From Candidatus Dadabacteria bacterium (GTDB taxonomy: Bacteria > Desulfobacterota_D > UBA1144 > Nemesobacterales > Nemesobacteraceae), in assembly GCA_022822065.1 (NCBI GenBank), contig JAJECI010000007.1, forward strand, positions 62,001-126,000: a stretch of DNA of 64,000 bases, in the 5' to 3' direction. Made by a program: the position numbers and the translations under genes. Each line of letters opens with the position of its first letter. The first letter of the stretch is position 1. The notes beneath the pieces are model-generated. The model had not been told where the DNA came from and did not search any database. It was given only the letters and a program-made list of their open reading frames with translations. This document shows positions 20,942 through 33,995 of this stretch, in pieces.

Positions 20942-22219
20942 CTAGAAGTAGGCCTGAACCTGCGCTCTTACCATGTTTTCATCCGATTCCGCGCCAGAGA
21001 GCTCCTCTTCTCTCTGGAACGTGTAGTCAAGCTGTATCTTCCACTTGTGATTGCCGCTCAGGTAGTAGTTAAGCCCCTGAGTGAACGTCCACACGTTGTC
21101 AAGGTCATTTCCCCCGAGAACGTTGGCATCAGTGTCAAACGTGACCATCGCATACCTTGAGGCAATTTCGATTCTCTTCGGAATCACAAAGAAACCACCC
21201 TGAACCCTGAAACCCTGATCATAGGCAGTCTCTACACCGCCATCATCCGGATTGGCCCACCTTCCGATATACTCACCGGTGAGGTTGAACCTTGGATCCC
21301 TGTAGTTTATGTCGGCCGTCAAAGAAGTTACCGTCCCGTTTTCAAGCGCCCTCTCTCCAGATGGAATTCCGATATTGCCGTCACTGCCATCTTCAACATC
21401 TATGCCCGCAACAGCGACTCCAACCATGAGCGTGGGCCTCTTGGCAAAGTTCTCTCTTACCTTCTTGGCTTTTCCGCCTATAACAGCCGCCTGAACCCTG
21501 CCTGCCCAGAGCATGCCGGTATCACCCTTGTCGTTCTTGGTGTTTGTACCTTCTCCCTGGAAAAGACCGAAATCGTAGCGGATCATCCCGCCGCCGAGAA
21601 AACCGTAAGCACCGCCGCCGATATCCCTGTCGTACTCAAAGTAGTCGGTTATTATCGAGCGGCCTACGACCTGAAGGGCGGATGAGGAGTTAAGCACCTC
21701 TCTGTTAAACGGAACCTTGTACTGACCCATCGTGGGAACAAAAGCCTTGTTCTTGGCAAACGAAAGTTTCATGTCCTTAAGTTCACCAGTTCTTCCGAAA
21801 TCGTACTGAACCTTGTATTTCATCCACGGGGCGAAAGCGTTACCGTCCCACGTTACCCTGAGCCTTCTTACCCTGAAACCGAGACCTTCGTTGTCGTCTC
21901 CGTCAGGATTTATGTAGTTGGCCAAGAACTGGCCACGAAGCCTCATTCTCATCTTGTAGTTCTTGTCCGCGGTCTGGAAAGTAAGGCCGGTGCCTTTTTT
22001 GGTTTTGACCTTTATTTTGTTGTACCAAGCCTTGGTGTCTTTAGCCTCGTACATTTTCATGTTCATCTGCTGACTTTGTTCCTCGAGCCTCTCTATCTGC
22101 TTTTTCAGCTCCTGAATCTGTTCCTCGATGCTCCTATCGCCGTCGCCGGCCTGAGCGGGAAGGGACATAAAGGAAAGCAACGTTATGAAAGACACAGCTA
22201 AAACCGCTAAAAATCTCAT
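20942..22219 (-). CDS. Phosphate-selective porin (OprP/OprO family)
   Basis: Outer-membrane trimeric channel for phosphate or polyphosphate. The 425-residue product has a signal peptide (MRFLAVLAV...LPAQA, cut near 24) and a short coiled coil at about 30-60, a common OprP feature. Beta-strand-rich sequence with FRVRRLRVTWDG and WMKYKVQYDF follows, and it ends in an aromatic (AYF). It is divergent from phoB, preceded by repeats that look like a Pho box and by an AGGAGGATATGAG ribosome site, and followed by a strong terminator. Location in the Pho block supports phosphate specificity. Confidence 0.88.
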   Translation of the reverse strand: MRFLAVLAVSFITLLSFMSLPAQAGDGDRSIEEQIQELKKQIERLEEQSQQMNMKMYEAKDTKAWYNKIKVKTKKGTGLTFQTADKNYKMRMRLRGQFLANYINPDGDDNEGLGFRVRRLRVTWDGNAFAPWMKYKVQYDFGRTGELKDMKLSFAKNKAFVPTMGQYKVPFNREVLNSSSALQVVGRSIITDYFEYDRDIGGGAYGFLGGGMIRYDFGLFQGEGTNTKNDKGDTGMLWAGRVQAAVIGGKAKKVRENFAKRPTLMVGVAVAGIDVEDGSDGNIGIPSGERALENGTVTSLTADINYRDPRFNLTGEYIGRWANPDDGGVETAYDQGFRVQGGFFVIPKRIEIASRYAMVTFDTDANVLGGNDLDNVWTFTQGLNYYLSGNHKWKIQLDYTFQREEELSGAESDENMVRAQVQAYF

Positions 22220-22271: not shown

Positions 22272-22325
22272 ATGATATTTGCGAATGGTTAATTCAGAAT
22301 AAATAAACTGTTAGTTCTACGTTAA
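22272..22325 (-). promoter_or_regulatory. Pho-box-like repeat array and -10 element for the porin gene
   Basis: Reading the minus strand, hexamers TTAACG, CTAACA, TTTATT and TTAACC occur at exactly 11-nt steps (22320, 22309, 22298, 22287). Nine bases further is TATCAT, a -10-like element (22272-22277). The TT(A/C)ACA-type unit resembles Bacillus PhoP and cyanobacterial SphR sites rather than the enterobacterial CTGTCAT unit. The same layout precedes pstS. Confidence 0.65.
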
Positions 22326-22342: not shown

Positions 22343-22371
22343 TTGATGTACGCATTCGCATTCTGTAAATT
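22343..22371 (+). promoter_or_regulatory. Putative phoBR promoter
   Basis: TTGATG at 22343-22348 and TAAATT at 22366-22371 are separated by 17 bp and lie just ahead of phoB, so the message would begin only a few bases before the AGGGAAAGCGT ribosome region. Seen by eye; strength unknown. Confidence 0.5.
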
Positions 22372-22385
22372 ATCAGGGAAAGCGT

Positions 22386-23084
22386 ATGAAAAAGCTAATA
22401 GCGGTAGTAGATGACGAAAAGGACATACTCAACCTGATAACCCATCACCTGAAGCGCGAGGGGTATCAGGTAAAACCCTTTCAGAGCGGAAAGGATTTTC
22501 TGCTTTACATAAATTCTGTTCCGCCGGACCTGGTGCTGCTCGACATTATGCTCCCGGGCATGGACGGCCTCGAACTCTGCAGAATCCTGAAAAGCAAACC
22601 TTCCACCGAATCCATACCCATAATCATGATCACCGCGAAATCCACCGAGGCCGATATCGTCGTGGGCCTCGAACTAGGTGCCGACGACTACATAGTGAAG
22701 CCTTTTCGGACCCGGGAACTTGTCGCCAGAGTAAAAAGCATCCTGAGAAGGTACGCGATGAAAGACTCCGGGGACGGATCGCTTTGTATCGGTCCTCTCA
22801 AGATAAATTCGGCAAGCTACGAGGTATCGGTTAACTCGCAAAAAATCGATCTCACCACCACCGAGTTCAGAATACTTGAAACCCTGGGAGAAGCGGAAGG
22901 AAAGGTGTTCACCCGTGATCAACTGCTCAAAAGAAAGACCCTCTGGGGAGACGAAAGGGTGGTTTTTGACAGGACGATAGACGTTCACATAAAAAACCTG
23001 AGAGAAAAACTGGGTTCCGCCGGCAAAATGATAAAGACCGTCAGAGGAATCGGTTACAAGCTAGAAGAGATCCAACCGGTTTGA
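22386..23084 (+). CDS. phoB: Phosphate regulon response regulator
   Basis: OmpR/PhoB-type regulator of 232 residues. The receiver domain carries acidic residues DDEK at 9-12, phospho-acceptor Asp53 in LLDIMLPG and the KPFRTRELVARV lysine. A C-terminal winged helix (about 135-230) ends with TVRGIGYKL. It overlaps phoR by four bases and faces the porin gene. Its neighbours (pst operon, OprP porin, phoU) make the phosphate role very likely. Confidence 0.93.
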   Translation: MKKLIAVVDDEKDILNLITHHLKREGYQVKPFQSGKDFLLYINSVPPDLVLLDIMLPGMDGLELCRILKSKPSTESIPIIMITAKSTEADIVVGLELGADDYIVKPFRTRELVARVKSILRRYAMKDSGDGSLCIGPLKINSASYEVSVNSQKIDLTTTEFRILETLGEAEGKVFTRDQLLKRKTLWGDERVVFDRTIDVHIKNLREKLGSAGKMIKTVRGIGYKLEEIQPV

Positions 23085-24448
23085 AGATATTCAGAAAACA
23101 TTTTCTTTACCTGCTCTGCCTGGCAGCCTCGGCAGCTCTGCTCGCCGTGCTGCTTTCCCCCGGGGGCGGAATTCTCGGATATGTTGCGTACATATCCGCT
23201 TTTGTCGTGTTCGGATTCATCCTCTCCTGGATCATCGAAAGGGACATTCTGAAGGACTTCTCAAGGATATCAAAGGCGCTTGAGCTTTTGCCGGAAAAAC
23301 AGAAAAAGGCCCGAAAGACAGGCCGCAAGGTAAGCGGCTTCGACACGGGAGTATCGATCTCCATAAGTGAGCTCTCCGAGAGAATTTCCCTTCAGATGCG
23401 CGAAACCGAGAGGGAGGGAAACCAGCTTAAAAGCATAATCGAGTCCATGAGGGAAGGAGTCATAGTGATATCAAGGGAAGAGAACCTCCTGCTTGTAAAC
23501 GACGCTGCGAAGGAGATGTTCGCAATAGACGACGCAGCCATTGGCCGCCCCTATATGGAGACTGTGAGAAACCCCGACCTCCAAGGGCTTATTTCCCGGA
23601 TGCAGCGGAAGAAAAAATCGGCAACCCAGGAAATCTCCGTGCTCTATCCTAAGGAAAGATCGTATCTCGTAAGTGTCAGAGTAAGTCCCCGCTACAGGGA
23701 AATCGTGGTGGTTATCTTTGACATAACAGAATTCAAGAACCTTGAGCGGATCAAGGCAGATTTCGTGGCAAACGTCTCCCATGAACTTAGAACCCCGCTT
23801 ACGTCCATAAAGGGATACATAGAAACCCTTCTTGACAGAAACTACGACACAGATGAGGAGAAAAAGGATTTCCTCGAGATAATAGAGGAGAACACCGACA
23901 GGCTCATAGCCATAGCCTCCGACCTGCTCGTACTATCGGAACTTGAAAGCGGAGAGGCAGACCCCCGGGATTCGAGGAAAGGATACGAAGAGATTGACAT
24001 CAGGGAAACAGTCCTCCGCTCCGTGGGTTCGCTTGACTCCCTTTTCTCGAAAAAAGGAGTCAATCTCTTACTTGAGATCGAAGACGGCATGCCCACCTAC
24101 AGGGCAAACAGGTTTCTGGTTGAGCGCATGCTCATTAACCTAATTGAGAATTCAGCCAAGTACACCCCTGAGAACGGCTCGGTGTCAGTTCGCGCCAAAA
24201 CCCTAAACGGCACCTTGTGCATAGAGGTTGAAGACAATGGAATCGGAATTCCCCCCGAGCACCACGAGAGGATATTCGAGAGGTTCTACAGGGTTGATAA
24301 GAACCGCTCAAGAGAGATAGGAGGAACGGGGCTCGGGCTAAGCATAGTGAAGCATATAGTCATACAGCACGGGGGAACCATAGGAGTCAGAAGCGCGGAA
24401 GGAGAGGGAAGCACTTTCACGGTTGAACTTCCACGGCACAAACAGTAG
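23081..24448 (+). CDS. phoR: Phosphate regulon sensor histidine kinase
   Basis: Inner-membrane kinase of 455 residues. Two N-terminal helices (about 9-26 and 31-52) with almost no periplasmic loop match PhoR. A PAS domain lies at about 115-215, the HisKA site is His234 in NVSHELRTPL, and the ATPase has N (LIENSAKYT), G1 (DNGIGIP) and G2 (GGTGLGLSI) boxes. It begins with TTG in a TTGA overlap with the phoB stop, so it is translationally coupled. The small periplasmic loop implies signalling through PstSCAB-PhoU. Confidence 0.93.
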   Translation: MKIFRKHFLYLLCLAASAALLAVLLSPGGGILGYVAYISAFVVFGFILSWIIERDILKDFSRISKALELLPEKQKKARKTGRKVSGFDTGVSISISELSERISLQMRETEREGNQLKSIIESMREGVIVISREENLLLVNDAAKEMFAIDDAAIGRPYMETVRNPDLQGLISRMQRKKKSATQEISVLYPKERSYLVSVRVSPRYREIVVVIFDITEFKNLERIKADFVANVSHELRTPLTSIKGYIETLLDRNYDTDEEKKDFLEIIEENTDRLIAIASDLLVLSELESGEADPRDSRKGYEEIDIRETVLRSVGSLDSLFSKKGVNLLLEIEDGMPTYRANRFLVERMLINLIENSAKYTPENGSVSVRAKTLNGTLCIEVEDNGIGIPPEHHERIFERFYRVDKNRSREIGGTGLGLSIVKHIVIQHGGTIGVRSAEGEGSTFTVELPRHKQ

Positions 24449-24456
24449 AACGGCGA

Positions 24457-25137
24457 TCAGTTCATCTCCGAAGTGTGGTGGTGCTTGAGCACCTCTCCTG
24501 TAGCTATGTAGTAGGCATTCTCGGCTATGTTCGTCGCCAGATCGCCCACCCTCTCAAGATGCCTTGCAACGTAGATGTAGCGAAGCGCCCGGCTAAGCGT
24601 TGAGGGATCCGACATGATGAAGGTTATAAGCTCCCTCACTATCTGGGGCTCGTAGTTATCAACTTCGTCGTCTTTGCGACAGACCTCCACGGCGAGTTGT
24701 GCATCCCTTTTGATAAACGCATCAAGGCTTTCCCTTAGCATCTCCATAGCCTTGTCCGCCATCTTGGGAATGTCAACAAGCGGCTTTATAGGCGGGTGGT
24801 CGGCCATGAAAATAGCCATTCGGGATATGCTCGAGGCGTGATCCCCTATTCTCTCAAGATCGTTGTTAACCTTCATTATCATCGTGACGGTCCGAAGGTC
24901 CTTGGCCTCGGGCTGGTAAAGAGCCAGAATCTTCACGCAAAGGTTGTCTATCTCGATCTCCATGTCGTTTACCTGCTCGTCGGTGCGGATCACTTCCTGG
25001 GCGAGGATCATGTTGCCTTCGCGAAGGGCCTTCATGCTCTTAGCGATGCGACTCTCCACAAGCGACGCCATTTCAAGCAGTTTCTTATTAAGAAGCGCGA
25101 GTTCCTCTTCGTACTTTATCATCCTTGATCGCTTCAT
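24457..25137 (-). CDS. phoU: Phosphate signalling protein PhoU
   Basis: All-helical cytoplasmic regulator with two PhoU repeats, each with an E/D-rich metal-binding motif; it links Pst transport state to PhoR. The ORF opens with GTG at 25146, but ATG at 25137 is preferred because AGGTG overlaps the pstB stop six bases before it (226 aa). It is the last gene of pstSCAB-phoU and converges on phoR with eight bases between. Confidence 0.94.
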   Translation of the reverse strand: MKRSRMIKYEEELALLNKKLLEMASLVESRIAKSMKALREGNMILAQEVIRTDEQVNDMEIEIDNLCVKILALYQPEAKDLRTVTMIMKVNNDLERIGDHASSISRMAIFMADHPPIKPLVDIPKMADKAMEMLRESLDAFIKRDAQLAVEVCRKDDEVDNYEPQIVRELITFIMSDPSTLSRALRYIYVARHLERVGDLATNIAENAYYIATGEVLKHHHTSEMN

Positions 25138-25146
25138 TGGACGCAC

Positions 25147-26010
25147 CTAGCCGAACTTACCCGAAACGTAGTCTTCTGTATGTTTTTTGGCGGGGTTAAG
25201 GAATATCTTCTCCGTGGTGTCAAACTCCACTATGTCGCCTATGTACATAAAAGCCGTGTAATCGGAAACCCGGGCGGCCTGCTGCATATTGTGGGTGACT
25301 ATAACTATTGTGAACTTGTTTTTAAGCTCCGTAACAAGATCCTCTATCTTGGCCGTGGCTATGGGATCAAGCGCAGAGCACGGTTCATCCATTAAAAGCA
25401 CGTCGGGCTCGACGGCTATGGCTCTTGCGATGCAGAGTCTCTGCTGCTGACCTCCAGAGAGTCCCATGGCGCTGTCATTGAGCCTGTCATTTACCTCGTC
25501 CCACAGGGCCGCGCGCTTGAGGTTCTTCTCCACTATATCGTCAAGAACCGATTTCTTCTTTATCCCCGCTATCCTAGCCCCGTAGGCAACGTTTTCGTAG
25601 ATCGATTTCGGAAACGGGTTTGATTTCTGAAACACCATGCCGACCCTTTTTCTAAGATCGGTGATGTCAACATCGGAGTTGAATATGCTTTTGCCGTTAA
25701 TCGATATTTCCCCTTCAATCCTGCAGTCGTCAATGAGGTCGTTTAAGCGGTTAAAGCAGCGAAGCAGCGTGGATTTGCCGCAGCCCGAAGGGCCTATAAA
25801 CGCCGTTACCTGTCTTCTCGGGATGTTCATATTGATATCCTGAAGGGCCTGCTTCGTGCCGTAAAAAAGGCTCAGGTCCTCAACTTTGACCAAAGGGTCG
25901 GGAACGGGCTTCGCCTTCTCCGGTTTTTTAGCCTTTGGGGCCGGGGCAACGCCGTTTATCTCCGGGGCTCTGAACTCTTGTCTCTCCATCGGTTCTCCAG
26001 ACAGCATCAA
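25147..26010 (-). CDS. pstB: Phosphate ABC transporter ATP-binding protein
   Basis: Energises phosphate import. Walker [10 protein letters not shown], signature LSGGQQQR and Walker [15 protein letters not shown] are intact. At 287 residues it is longer than usual because of an Ala/Pro/Lys-rich N-terminal tail of about 40 residues before [11 protein letters not shown]. It follows pstA by 30 bp. Confidence 0.96.
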
Positions 26011-26040
26011 ATCTTCCTCCTCTACTTATACCTTATTAAA

Positions 26041-27657
26041 CTACACCGCGGAAGTCGCATATTTTTTCCTCAGTCTGTTTCTTATTACTATCGCCGTTAT
26101 GTTAAGCACAACCACTATCAGTATGAGCAGAAACGCGGTCATGAACACCATGGGTTTTGCGGCTTCGGCGTTTGGAGACTGAAAGCCGAGGTCGTATATG
26201 TGGAACCCGAGATGCATGAACTTTCTCTCAAGATGCAGGAAGGGGAAGTGCCCGTCTATGGGAAGATCGGGTGCGAGCTTCACGACCCCCGTTATCATAA
26301 GCGGCGCCACTTCTCCCGTGGCCCGGGCAACCGCGAGGATAAGACCCGTGAGTATGGCGGGAAGCGCGCTAGGGATAACAACCTTCCAAGTAGTCTCAAA
26401 CTTCGTGGCCCCGAGCGCAAGCGATCCCTCCCTTATGTTTCTCGGAACTGCCGCGAGTCCCTCCTCGGTCGCGACTATCACCACCGGAACAGTGAGAAGA
26501 GCGAGAGTAAGCGACGCCCACAGTATGCCTCCCGTGCCAAAAGTCGGGCTGGGAAGCGCTTCCTTGAAAAACACGGAGTCGATTATGCCCCCTATGCCGT
26601 AGAGAAAGAACCCCACTCCGAAAACGCCGAACACTATTGAGGGAACTCCGGCAAGGTTGTTAACGCATATCCTGACGATCCTCACCATAACTCCCTGCCT
26701 GGCGTACTCGCGAAGGTAAAGCGCCGCTACGATTCCGAAAGGCATTACCACTATGCTCATTATAAGCACCATGAGCACCGTGCCGAAAATTGCGGGGAAG
26801 ATTCCGCCCTCGGTGTTGGCCTCCCTCGGGTCATCGGAGACAAACCCCCAGAATCTTTTGACGTAAAACCCGGCTTTTTCCACAAATCCCATACTGTTTG
26901 GGCGATGGGCCATTACGATCTTCCCAAGCGGTATAGTCTTCTCGTTTCCCCCGGCGGATAGCATCACCGCCTCGTTTCTGTTAAGCTCCGCGTAGAGCGC
27001 TTCGAGCTTCGCCTCGCTTGTCTTGTAGCGCCCTTCGTATTCTTTTATCTTCAGGCGATACTCGGCCTCCTTCGCGGGGTTATGCTCGCCGCGCACGGCA
27101 AGCCCCTTGAGTTTCAAGCGCTGCTTCTCGATCCCGTAGTTTATGTCCCCGATCTCGCCTTTTTCTATCTTGAGTATCCTCTCGTGTATCCTGTTAGCGT
27201 CGCGTATCAGGCCCAGAAGCACCGAGAAAGCCTCCGGGTCAGTGCCCGGAATCACCTGACCGTTCTTTCTTATCTCCTTTAAGTAACCGTGGTAATCTCC
27301 CCATTCGTGTCGCTCCAAAACCACGGCGTCACGGGGATAATCACGTGACTTTACATCGCCCTCGTTTATCCACTTGAAGTCAAGGCCGTATATATCCCTG
27401 TTTCCTATCTTGAGCTTGACGCGGAACTCTGAACCACTCACGCCGTCCCCTCCCCGCACAGATTCCCTCGCACGAAGCTGTCCCAGGTAAGCAGAGCCGT
27501 CTCTAAGCTCGTAGCGTCCTATGTCCGCCGGCCACATCGAACCCAAACCCTTCGTGGCTATCAGGAACAGAAGCCCCCCTATCATCACGAGCGTGACCAT
27601 GAGGGCAAGGCCCGATATCCAAATGTAGGCATCGCCTGCTTTCCAGAGGTTAGGCAT
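26041..27657 (-). CDS. pstA: Phosphate ABC transporter permease PstA, long form
   Basis: The 538-residue protein has an N-terminal membrane helix (about 10-33), then about 230 residues of soluble, partly coiled-coil sequence. The usual six-helix permease follows, with the EAA-type loop VPRNIREGSLALGATKFET. The long N-terminal part resembles the DUF3333 extension known from gamma-proteobacterial PstA. Its start overlaps the end of pstC by eight bases. Confidence 0.92.
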   Translation of the reverse strand: MPNLWKAGDAYIWISGLALMVTLVMIGGLLFLIATKGLGSMWPADIGRYELRDGSAYLGQLRARESVRGGDGVSGSEFRVKLKIGNRDIYGLDFKWINEGDVKSRDYPRDAVVLERHEWGDYHGYLKEIRKNGQVIPGTDPEAFSVLLGLIRDANRIHERILKIEKGEIGDINYGIEKQRLKLKGLAVRGEHNPAKEAEYRLKIKEYEGRYKTSEAKLEALYAELNRNEAVMLSAGGNEKTIPLGKIVMAHRPNSMGFVEKAGFYVKRFWGFVSDDPREANTEGGIFPAIFGTVLMVLIMSIVVMPFGIVAALYLREYARQGVMVRIVRICVNNLAGVPSIVFGVFGVGFFLYGIGGIIDSVFFKEALPSPTFGTGGILWASLTLALLTVPVVIVATEEGLAAVPRNIREGSLALGATKFETTWKVVIPSALPAILTGLILAVARATGEVAPLMITGVVKLAPDLPIDGHFPFLHLERKFMHLGFHIYDLGFQSPNAEAAKPMVFMTAFLLILIVVVLNITAIVIRNRLRKKYATSAV

Positions 27658-29944
27658 CGGACTGCGCGTACTTCCTCCTCAGTCTCTGGCTGAGAACCTC
27701 AGCCAGGGTGTTAAGCAAAAAGGTGACCGCAAACAGCAGAATCGCCGTGAGGAAAAGTACCCTGTAGAGTGTTCCCCCGTGCGGCGCTTCGGGAAGCTCG
27801 ACCGCGATGTTGGCCGAAAGCGCCCTGAAACCGTTAAAAAAGCTCCAGTCCATAACCGGCGTGTTGCCGGTCGCCATGAGCACGATCATCGTCTCTCCCA
27901 CTGCCCTTCCAAAACCTATCATCACAGCCGAGAATATGCCTGCGCTTGCCGCGGGCAGAACTATCCTCATGGCTGTCTGCCACCTGTTGGCCCCCAGGGC
28001 CAAAGATCCCGCGGAGAGAGTCCTCGGGACGCTTGAGAGCGCGTCTTCAGATATGGTGAATATGATGGGAATCACCGTAAAACCCATTGCGAATCCCACG
28101 ACCAGCATATTTCTCTGGTCGTAGCGAAGATCGAACATACTAAAAAACCAGTCCCTAAAGTCCCCCGCGAAAATAAGACTCTCAAGGGGACCGTTAAGCC
28201 ACAGGGAAAGCACAACCGCGATCCCTATCACACCCACCAGAGTGAAAAGCTCGGCTCCTACCCGGAACCTCCCTGAGAACGAGAACGGAAGGCGGTGCCA
28301 AAGGAAAAGCGCAAAAAGGGTAAGACCAATCACCATAAACGGCATCACTAGGGTCGCGACGAAGATCTTCTCAAGCAGCGGCGCAAGCCATAGGCCCGCA
28401 AGGAATCCCAGAACCACGCTCGGAAGCGCCGCCATGACCTCTATCACGGGTTTCACCACGTTTCTTATCGAGGGATGGAGGAACTGCGAAACGCAGATGG
28501 CCGCCAAGATCGCAAGCGGAATCGAAAGTATCATCGTGTATATGGCACCTTTCAGGGTTCCGTACGCAAGCGGGGTCAAGCTGAACTTGGGCTCGAACTC
28601 GTCCGTTCCTCCCGTTGACTGCCACACGTATCGGGGCCTGTCGTAGCCCTCGTACCATATTTTTCCGAAAAGGGTGCGAAAGTTCGTCTCGGGATGCGGA
28701 TTGTCAAGATAGTAGCTTGAAAGCATCATGTCAGAATCCACAGCCACCACCCCGTTTGCCTTCGGAGAAAAACTAAGCCCCGCATAAGGCTTTCCCCGGC
28801 CCGGAAAATCAAGCTGCTTCGCGGCGGAAGTGGCCTGGTAAAGGGATATGTTTCCCGAGGTATCGGAAGCCAGAAAGCCTCTTCCCCTCTGCGACGCGGA
28901 GAACCTGTCAACCGCAGCAGGAAGCGGGGGAAAAACGTGTATCTTCGCAAGCCTGCTTTCCTCGCCGCCGCTCGTGGTCTCAAACCACACGCTTACGTTT
29001 CCCGCGGCGTCACCGACGATGAGGGACCGGTGACCTAGAAGGAACCCTATTCTAGTAACTGCCACCCCGGGGTCCGCGGTAGCCGCAAGCATGGATTTGA
29101 GTTCCGGAGAAGAGGGATCCGAAAGCGACCAGTGATAAAGCTTCCCGTTTGCGGTAGAGACGTAGAGATTCTCCGCTTCGGAATCGACCTGCACTCCCGT
29201 AACCACGGCTCCTCCGAGTTCCCCCGTAAGATCGGTCGTGAAGACCTCGGTTTCACTTTCGCCTAAAAACCCTTCCTCCTCGACCTCGGCGTATGCCAGA
29301 AGGCGCTTAGAAGCCGTGTAGGCCACTACCACGGGGGCCCCTGTTTCGGGCGAACTCTGATAGGCAAACATTTCTATCGGTTCTTCCGCTACCCGGAGAG
29401 CATCTCCCTCCGTAACTCTCGACACTATGGTTCTTTCGGTCCCCTCGCGGAACTCCACCCTAAAACTCACCTCGAACGGAACCACGTAACCCTCCCTGTC
29501 GGCAATCGCGTAGGATGTGTTGGTTCGGGCGCTGTAAAAAGATGCGTAACCTGTTGTCTTGTGGGAGACCGTGTGGGTCTTAAGGAGCTTAGGTTCTTCT
29601 TCGAGGGTGAAAAAGCGTACCGATCCGAGAGAGTCTACCGTGAAAAACTGCTCCCTGTACTCATCCACTCCTATATCGAAAATACGTACCTGCCCAGACG
29701 GCGCACCGGAAGCGAGACGGTCTTCCATCTCCGAGACGCTCTCAAGCTTTTTTCCGGGACTTTTCCACAGGGGAATGGTCTCGATCCCTATGAAGAAAAG
29801 TATGGCTATTATGCAGAAGATAATTCCCGCGCCGCCGACAAATACCACGTGCCTTGCCAGCCTGTCGTAGAGTTTTCTTCTGCGTATCTGCTTCTGCTTG
29901 GAACCCTCTTCGATTCCGAGTTCGTCAGTTTGATCGCTTGACAA
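27650..29944 (-). CDS. pstC: Phosphate ABC transporter permease PstC, long form with large extracytoplasmic insert
   Basis: At 764 residues it is more than twice a basic PstC. A first membrane helix (about 33-56) is followed by some 390 residues of beta-rich, repeat-like sequence. The pattern of short strands with SG, DP and W residues suggests a propeller fold facing the periplasm. The C-terminal third holds the permease helices and the loop VPRTLSAGSLALGANRWQT. Long PstC forms are known in proteobacteria; the role of the insert is not established. It is 136 bp downstream of pstS. Confidence 0.9.
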   Translation of the reverse strand: MSSDQTDELGIEEGSKQKQIRRRKLYDRLARHVVFVGGAGIIFCIIAILFFIGIETIPLWKSPGKKLESVSEMEDRLASGAPSGQVRIFDIGVDEYREQFFTVDSLGSVRFFTLEEEPKLLKTHTVSHKTTGYASFYSARTNTSYAIADREGYVVPFEVSFRVEFREGTERTIVSRVTEGDALRVAEEPIEMFAYQSSPETGAPVVVAYTASKRLLAYAEVEEEGFLGESETEVFTTDLTGELGGAVVTGVQVDSEAENLYVSTANGKLYHWSLSDPSSPELKSMLAATADPGVAVTRIGFLLGHRSLIVGDAAGNVSVWFETTSGGEESRLAKIHVFPPLPAAVDRFSASQRGRGFLASDTSGNISLYQATSAAKQLDFPGRGKPYAGLSFSPKANGVVAVDSDMMLSSYYLDNPHPETNFRTLFGKIWYEGYDRPRYVWQSTGGTDEFEPKFSLTPLAYGTLKGAIYTMILSIPLAILAAICVSQFLHPSIRNVVKPVIEVMAALPSVVLGFLAGLWLAPLLEKIFVATLVMPFMVIGLTLFALFLWHRLPFSFSGRFRVGAELFTLVGVIGIAVVLSLWLNGPLESLIFAGDFRDWFFSMFDLRYDQRNMLVVGFAMGFTVIPIIFTISEDALSSVPRTLSAGSLALGANRWQTAMRIVLPAASAGIFSAVMIGFGRAVGETMIVLMATGNTPVMDWSFFNGFRALSANIAVELPEAPHGGTLYRVLFLTAILLFAVTFLLNTLAEVLSQRLRRKYAQSDA

Positions 29945-30080
29945 TGAAATTACCTTGCATCCGGGACATCAGGTGCGAAAAAGACGGTTAAGATCCGACT
30001 TCCCCAGGGAAAACGGCCAACCGCAGACGAATCCGAGACACTTCCGGACCCGTCCGCACAGAAAGCCGTAAATAGTATAC

Positions 30081-31073
30081 CTACTTTGCACCTACAAGGA
30101 CTCTTAACTCGGAAACCTTGGCGGCGGGAAGCGGGAGATAGCCGTCTTTTATGACTATTTTCTGTCCCTGCTTGCTCAGAATGTATTTCAGGAACTCGAG
30201 ACGAAGCGGATCGAGAGTTTCGTTCGGCTTCTTGTTAACGTAGAGGAAGAGATACCTTCCGAGCGGGTATTTCCCGCCGACGACGTTTTTAAGACTGGGA
30301 CCAAAACAGCCCTTCTCGGCGGACTTCGCAAGCTCGATTGCCTTTACCCCGGAGGTCTTGTACCCGATACCGCTGTAGCCGACGCCCTGGAGATCCTCAG
30401 TGATTCCCTGCACGACGGCGGAGGATCCTGGCTGCTCCTTAACGGTGTCCTTGTAATCGCCCTTGCAAAGAGCCTTCTTCTTGAAATAGCCGTAGGTTCC
30501 CGACGCGGAGTTTCGCCCGTAAACGCTTATCGGCTTGCCGGCCCAGTCGCCGCCGAGACCTGCGGCTCCCCAAGTGTTGATGTCGCTTCCGCCGCCGCAT
30601 TTTCTGTTCTTCGAAAAGATGGCGTCAACCTGCTTTATCGACATACACTTCGTCGGGTTGTCCTTGTTTACGTAAACCGCAAGCGCGTCAATTGACGTCG
30701 GAACCGCGGTCGGCTTGTAACCGGCCACCTTTTCGAAGGCGTCAACTTCTTTTGATTTCATCATTCTGGACATGGGTCCGAACTGGGAAGTCCCCGCTAT
30801 GAGAGCAGGAGGAGCAGTACTCGAACCCTTGCCCTCTATCTGGCATTTAACATTGGGGTAGAACTTTGCGAATCCCTCGCACCAGAACGTCATAAGGTTG
30901 TTCATGGTGTCGGAACCTACGCTGTCTATGTTCCCGGAAACACCCGTGACTTTCGTGTAGGAAGGTATGTCCGGGTCAACCTTGACCGTCTGAGCTCCGG
31001 CAACCTGGCCGAATGTAAGAGCGCAAACAATCGCGAAAAGAGCAAAACTCGACTTAACACTCAAATACTTCAT
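30081..31073 (-). CDS. pstS: Phosphate-binding protein PstS
   Basis: Periplasmic binding protein of about 330 residues. The ORF extends to 31115, but ATG at 31073 has AAGGAGGA eight bases upstream and begins a classic signal peptide (MKYLSVKSSFALF...VAGA, cut before Gln). Phosphate-contact motifs GSDTMNNL, GKGSSTAPPAL and YGRNSASGTYGYF are present. A Pho-box-like array precedes it. Confidence 0.94.
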   Translation of the reverse strand: MKYLSVKSSFALFAIVCALTFGQVAGAQTVKVDPDIPSYTKVTGVSGNIDSVGSDTMNNLMTFWCEGFAKFYPNVKCQIEGKGSSTAPPALIAGTSQFGPMSRMMKSKEVDAFEKVAGYKPTAVPTSIDALAVYVNKDNPTKCMSIKQVDAIFSKNRKCGGGSDINTWGAAGLGGDWAGKPISVYGRNSASGTYGYFKKKALCKGDYKDTVKEQPGSSAVVQGITEDLQGVGYSGIGYKTSGVKAIELAKSAEKGCFGPSLKNVVGGKYPLGRYLFLYVNKKPNETLDPLRLEFLKYILSKQGQKIVIKDGYLPLPAAKVSELRVLVGAK

Positions 31074-31124
31074 TACAAGAATCCTCCTTAAGATAGTGGA
31101 AAACAAACCAAACAAGCTGGATTA

Positions 31125-31178
31125 ATTTAAACCCCGAAAGGTTAAGTGCGTGTTAAGAAGCAATTAAAGAAGGGTAAA
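31125..31178 (-). promoter_or_regulatory. Pho-box-like repeat array and -10 element for the pst operon
   Basis: On the minus strand TTTACC, TTAATT, TTAACA and TTAACC occur at exact 11-nt steps (31173, 31162, 31151, 31140). Nine bases later is TTAAAT (31125-31130), placed as a -10. Transcription would start about 45 nt ahead of the pstS ATG. Number of units, period and the 9-bp gap to the -10 equal those at the porin gene. Binding by PhoB is inferred from position and symmetry. Confidence 0.7.
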
Positions 31179-33333: not shown

Positions 33334-33972
33334 CTAAGAGTCCTTGTTTATCAGCAGTCCGGAAGCAAGCTGCGAGAAAACCGCGTCGGCCACCTCTCCC
33401 GCGTCCATCGAGAAATCGTGGTGAACCATTACCGCGCCCACTGCCCCGTAGAGCATGAGGGCGCGAAGCCTCGGGTTCTGTCTCACGAAGCTTCCTTCGT
33501 CTATGCCTTTTTCTATTATTTTTTCGTAGAGCCTCACCCGCCGCGTTCTCCACTTCTCTGTAAGCTCGAAATGCTCCTTGAGAAGATGCGTCTCGTCGCG
33601 GGAGAGGATGCGAAGAACTTTCAAGTTCCGTCTGTAGAAAGTGAATATGGTCACAAGCAGCTTGCGGAGCTTCAGGGGAGCGGGGTCCGAATTCTCTACT
33701 TCCTCATGCAGAAGCGCCTCTATGGCCTCGAAGCTCTCCTTGAGGATTTCGAGGTAGAGATTCTCCTTGGAGGAGAAGTAGTTGTAGAGGGTTCCCTTCG
33801 ATACGCCCATCTCCTCGGCTATCTCTTCCATGGTGACCTCGTGGTAGCCCTTCTCGGAAAAAAGATCGGTCGCGGCCCTCAGTATCTCGTCGCGGCGCCT
33901 GAACCTGCGGGATGTCTGCCTGCTCTGCGCACCTCTCTCGGGAACGCTGTTAGTCTGAACCATATTACTCAC
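33334..33972 (-). CDS. TetR/AcrR-family transcriptional regulator
   Basis: 212 residues: an N-terminal helix-turn-helix (TMEEIAEEMGVSKGTLYNYFSSKENLY) and a helical ligand-binding domain with no recognisable ligand signature. A perfect palindrome lies four bases ahead of its ATG, so it very likely represses itself and the aminotransferase gene that follows 33 bp later. Confidence 0.92.
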   Translation of the reverse strand: MSNMVQTNSVPERGAQSRQTSRRFRRRDEILRAATDLFSEKGYHEVTMEEIAEEMGVSKGTLYNYFSSKENLYLEILKESFEAIEALLHEEVENSDPAPLKLRKLLVTIFTFYRRNLKVLRILSRDETHLLKEHFELTEKWRTRRVRLYEKIIEKGIDEGSFVRQNPRLRALMLYGAVGAVMVHHDFSMDAGEVADAVFSQLASGLLINKDS

Positions 33973-33975
33973 CCA

Positions 33976-33995
33976 CTGACTGACTCGTCAGTCAG
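33976..33995. promoter_or_regulatory. Palindromic TetR operator
   Basis: CTGACTGAC-tc-GTCAGTCAG is a perfect 9-bp inverted repeat with a 2-bp centre, immediately upstream of the tetR start codon. TGACTGAC-type half-sites are common for TetR-family proteins. Autoregulation, and possible control of the divergent DUF4403 gene, is inferred. Confidence 0.8.

Follow-up and report, generated by a model that had tools for sequence, protein, structure and literature searches.

Between a predicted porin gene and the divergent phoB gene lies an array of short direct repeats followed by a -10 element (positions 22272-22325), which raises the question of whether it is a Pho box and which of the two genes it serves. 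The analysis covered a window of 64 kb, meaning the whole stretch of DNA presented, the genome assembly to which it belongs, and related genomes. On the reverse strand, 22272-22325 reads TTAACG-tagaa-CTAACA-gttta-TTTATT-ctgaa-TTAACC-attcgcaaa-TATCAT. The predicted Pho box (22288-22325, minus strand) consists of four hexamers, TTAACG, CTAACA, TTTATT, and TTAACC, with an exact period of 11 bp, and is separated by a 9-bp gap from TATCAT, the -10 element of the porin promoter (22272-22277, minus strand). Its units point towards the porin gene. Unit 3 (TTTATT) is weak and degenerate, and the surrounding intergenic region is AT-rich. No consensus -35/-10 promoter was found at 22272-22325. The original prediction had described four units, this period, and a 9-bp gap to TATCAT, and the minus strand reads exactly so. 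The locus shows 11-nt tandem direct repeats and a -10 at offset 9 with no good -35, as expected of a Pho box, and the same genome carries a further array at pst and encodes an OmpR/PhoB-family regulator.

The second predicted Pho box is located upstream of pstS (31141-31178, minus strand) and is conserved in relatives. Its units TTTACC, TTAATT, TTAACA, and TTAACC follow the same 11-bp period, and a -10-like element, TTAAAT (TTTAAT in several relatives), lies 9 bp past the last unit at 31125-31130 on the minus strand. The full site is TTTACC-cttct-TTAATT-gcttc-TTAACA-cgcac-TTAACC-tttcggggt-TTAAAT, where the gap is 9; taking TAAATT as the -10 would make it 10. Identical layout of the two sites had been claimed. 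This applies to unit number, period, and gap, but the two arrays differ in which units are strong. The operon behind the box, pstS-pstC-pstA-pstB-phoU (24457-31115, minus strand), was assigned by family matches above cut-off for PhoU, PstB, PstA, and PstS and just below it for PstC. PstA (26041-27657; 538 aa) and PstC (27650-29944; 764 aa) greatly exceed the roughly 300 aa of the standard proteins, with C-terminal permease domains and long N-terminal parts without a Pfam match. Elsewhere in the window, a perfect 9-bp inverted repeat, CTGACTGAC-TC-GTCAGTCAG (33976-33995), is found directly upstream of a tetR-family gene (33334-33972, minus strand) that is divergent from a DUF4403 gene; the repeat is likely a TetR operator.

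The porin-side array was then compared among relatives. In 12 congeneric species, 24 of 26 columns in the unit cores (unit positions 1-5) and the -10 were invariant; of the other 45 columns lying between the porin -10 and the -35 of phoB, 16 were (Fisher p = 1.7e-6). The -10 TATCAT is invariant in all 12, and the spacers between the units drift. Across families of the order, phoB and an oppositely oriented Porin_O_P gene flank a four-unit array. Outside the order, four genomes from another family of the class carry it too, again beside a divergent gene for a porin of this type; conservation of the box thus extends to a second order. When periods of 7-15 were compared, only 11 gave a high mean best score (19.7 versus about 14). 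Of 26 arrays (the window site and those from beyond the genus), 22 have a TAnnnT element at offset 9, any other offset having it in 0-2 of the 26, and TnnAnT occurs at offset 9 in 24/24 pst sites, counts that overstate the number of independent events because the relatives' sequences share ancestry. In relative G015, for which the upstream sequence is partial, the array was not seen upstream of phoB. In the congeners G007 and G010, phoB, pstS, and the arrays are seemingly absent, and a co-loss of box and PhoB was considered and dropped, since assembly gaps explain these cases best: the flanking trpF and M48 genes are also missing from G007, and G010 has phoU but just part of trpF. Very probably, 22272-22325 is a promoter that drives the divergent porin gene under PhoB control.

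The predicted target (20942-22219, minus strand) encodes a 425-aa outer-membrane porin of the Porin_O_P family (PF07396, E = 4.3e-13; 49.7 bits against a gathering cut-off of 20.9). OprP and OprO of Pseudomonas are phosphate porins induced by phosphate starvation. The porin shares with them the PF07396 family and, as predicted here, the same regulatory logic of a PhoB-controlled outer-membrane porin, but it is too distant for profile detection of the solved chains: a PDB search with the single sequence and with a 12-member profile found no solved OprP or OprO chain. The only NCBIfam match was ExtI, a selenite/tellurite-associated family, far below cut-off, and a single-sequence structure model was too poor for use (pLDDT 34). 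The description of the gene as OprP-like therefore stands at the level of the Pfam family and does not extend to the solved proteins or to an NCBIfam assignment, and phosphate selectivity of the porin should not be assumed. The box could be real while the porin admits another substrate useful in phosphate starvation, or acts as a general anion porin. Porin_O_P is a broad family, which together with the search results fits such a role, as does an unlinked paralogue about 80% identical to the porin that is located away from phoB in eight congeners. These paralogues lack the array, with best scores of 13.5-14.6 compared with 19-20 at the phoB-linked genes. However, in two orders the porin gene has a fixed linkage to phoB and to a Pho-type array, which suggests that it contributes to phosphate supply, so that a channel for something other than phosphate is rather unlikely, though a substantial possibility. 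We infer that the porin serves phosphate uptake.

The array could instead act mainly on phoBR, with PhoB activating or repressing its own promoter, with or without an effect on the porin promoter. The phoB gene (22386-23084, plus strand) is followed by a phoR/pnpS-type sensor histidine kinase gene (23081-24448, plus strand; PnpS 369.5 bits, cut-off 400; phoR_proteo 296.9 bits, cut-off 334.2). Upstream of phoB, a predicted sigma70-like promoter consists of a -35 TTGATG (22343-22348, plus strand) and a -10 TAAATT (22366-22371, plus strand), both invariant in the 12 congeners and separated by the standard 17-bp spacer in 12/12. The array ends at 22325, 17 bp before the start of this -35 at 22343, and the two are conserved together in the 12 congeners. 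PhoB could thus regulate its own operon, since the array reaches so close to the -35. The original prediction had given phoBR a constitutive-looking promoter of its own; the separate promoter was confirmed as an invariant element, but with the array 17 bp from its -35 it may not be constitutive. Against a main role at phoBR, the units face the porin gene and keep an exact distance to its -10 in almost every relative, phoBR already has a full -35/-10 pair, and the pst sites share orientation and gap without a divergent phoB nearby. We consider it improbable that the array serves mainly phoBR, although the proximity gives this alternative some weight.

The porin promoter remains the preferred assignment of the array, and the candidate regulator is encoded beside it. 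PhoB binds 11-nt direct repeats in a head-to-tail arrangement (PMC4415409). The window's phoB product matches NCBIfam family TIGR02154 best (237.8 bits, below the equivalog cut-off of 296.2), and its gene is divergent from the porin gene, with phoR, phoU, and pst nearby. Among the proteins encoded in the genome, only the phoB product has the OmpR/PhoB DNA-binding domain PF00486. Because this is the single PF00486 protein and PhoB-type regulators bind 11-nt repeats, PhoB is the only candidate regulator in the assembly. Several OmpR/PhoB-family members use 11-bp direct repeats, so another member of the family could in principle occupy the array, but the remaining response-regulator matches in the genome have the receiver domain only, and absence of such a gene from an assembly that is 96.5% complete is possible but unlikely; binding by another regulator is accordingly very improbable. 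Judged by sequence, the array is almost certainly the landing site of the genome's only PhoB-type regulator. The original prediction that porin and pst share a regulator is strongly supported by the 11-bp repeats, the single PF00486 protein, and the conserved array and gap.

The uniqueness of the two sites was assessed in the window and genome-wide. Allowing up to three mismatches, the four-unit pattern matched only the porin and pstS sites in the 64-kb window, and no match was obtained in 100 dinucleotide shuffles. In 4 Mb of Markov sequence with the window or an AT-richer promoter composition, the score of neither site was reached. With at most one mismatch, the pattern occurred in the whole genome (1.63 Mb) only at these two sites, and a reversed control pattern gave no match in the same 1.63 Mb. 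That the repeats arose by coincidence in AT-rich DNA, or reflect the spacing of a promoter that no regulator binds, as the AT-rich intergenic region and the degenerate unit 3 might suggest, is a negligible prospect and is already refuted to a large extent, since Markov sequences never reach the score even at AT-rich composition, period 11 is unique, and the array is kept while its spacers drift and is found again at pst throughout the order.

A third, weaker array (TTAACC, TTAACA, cTTGCC, TTGACG) was observed at L189:2774-2811 (G000:C9:149273-149310), upstream of a Glyco_trans_1_3 glycosyltransferase gene (L189:2897-3970) that adjoins a PAP2-family gene. Stronger versions are present in most congeners, and the array is decayed in some; the gene behind it may serve lipid replacement as part of the phosphate response. 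A HigB-like toxin gene and a helix-turn-helix antitoxin-like gene are located near this array (L189:2008-2310 and 2346-2621). In genome G034 of the same order, 17 four-unit arrays were counted versus one for the control pattern, which suggests a Pho regulon much larger than the two or three sites of the genus.

The predicted porin switch is of a well-known kind and ordinary in that respect, and its box can be compared with several described systems. The PhoP box of Bacillus subtilis consists of TTAACA-type direct repeats. It resembles the present array in hexamer sequence and unit number, and differs in its Gram-positive host, which offers no outer-membrane porin as a target. The 11-bp period is also shared (11-nt repeats: PMC4415409). 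The Escherichia coli pho box is built of CTGTCAT units in 11-nt direct repeats (PMC4415409, PMC1906773), located 10 bp upstream of a TAN3T/A -10 (PMC1906773). Common to both are 11-bp tandem repeats that replace the -35 about 10 bp before the -10, and a pst target. However, the array at the porin gene has TTAAC in place of CTGTCA and four units rather than at least two, and units of the E. coli CTGTCAT type were not found among its four hexamers. The gap of 9 at the porin site applies to the hexamers as written, with an uncertainty of 1-2 bp in how the two motifs are aligned. The cyanobacterial SphR box, CTTAACCT, is composed of tandem 8-mers with 3-bp linkers (PMC1906773). It has in common with the present array the TTAAC core, the 11-bp period, three or more tandem units, and a pst target; the array described here differs in its lineage, in a Porin_O_P target divergent from the regulator, in having four units, and in a -10 exactly 9 bp downstream. 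By its hexamers, the predicted box is of the TTAAC type and closest to the SphR box, not of the E. coli CTGTCAT type. The literature collection searched contained no paper dealing directly with PhoB or PhoP at TTAACA Pho boxes.

The difference in strong units between the two arrays was quantified as the number of matches to TTAACA per unit, and the promoter-distal pair was compared with the proximal pair. The units in the window scored 5,5,3,5 at the porin site and 4,4,6,5 at the pst site. Across the order, the distal pair was better in 28 of 29 porin arrays, with one tie, and the proximal pair was better in all 24 well-called pst arrays, a pattern that spans several families, the 29 and 24 sequences being related and not independent events. 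The distal-strong polarity was not seen in the four porin arrays of the second order. The four-unit TTAAC arrays between phoB and porin at L264-L267 (same class, outside the order) have strong proximal units, in contrast to those of the window's order. The reversed strong and weak halves of the porin and pst arrays are a new and unexpected detail. Tentatively, this opposite polarity may set different induction thresholds. At pst, a strong proximal site for a PhoB dimer would switch the pump on early. At the porin gene, where strength lies in the distal pair alone, the proximal dimer that activates transcription would need cooperative recruitment, giving a later response at higher levels of phosphorylated PhoB.

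We infer PhoB binding and phosphate-dependent induction of the porin from the arrangement of the locus. When phosphate is scarce, the adjacent phoBR operon would supply phosphorylated PhoB, which would occupy the four TTAAC-type units head-to-tail as two tandem dimers. PhoB on the proximal pair would substitute for the missing -35 and recruit sigma70 RNA polymerase to the -10, 9 bp downstream. With pstSCAB-phoU driven by the same device, the porin and the high-affinity pump would form one small regulon.

For what is apparently a little-studied class, these results provide a well-defined predicted Pho box, with a TTAAC core, four units, and 9 bp to the -10. The predicted regulon is very small, and the outer-membrane porin beside the regulator is a fixed member of it. 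The reversed half strengths at the porin and pst genes offer a clean, testable example of how layout could set thresholds and, if the threshold reading is true, would mean that pst responds at a lower threshold than the porin.
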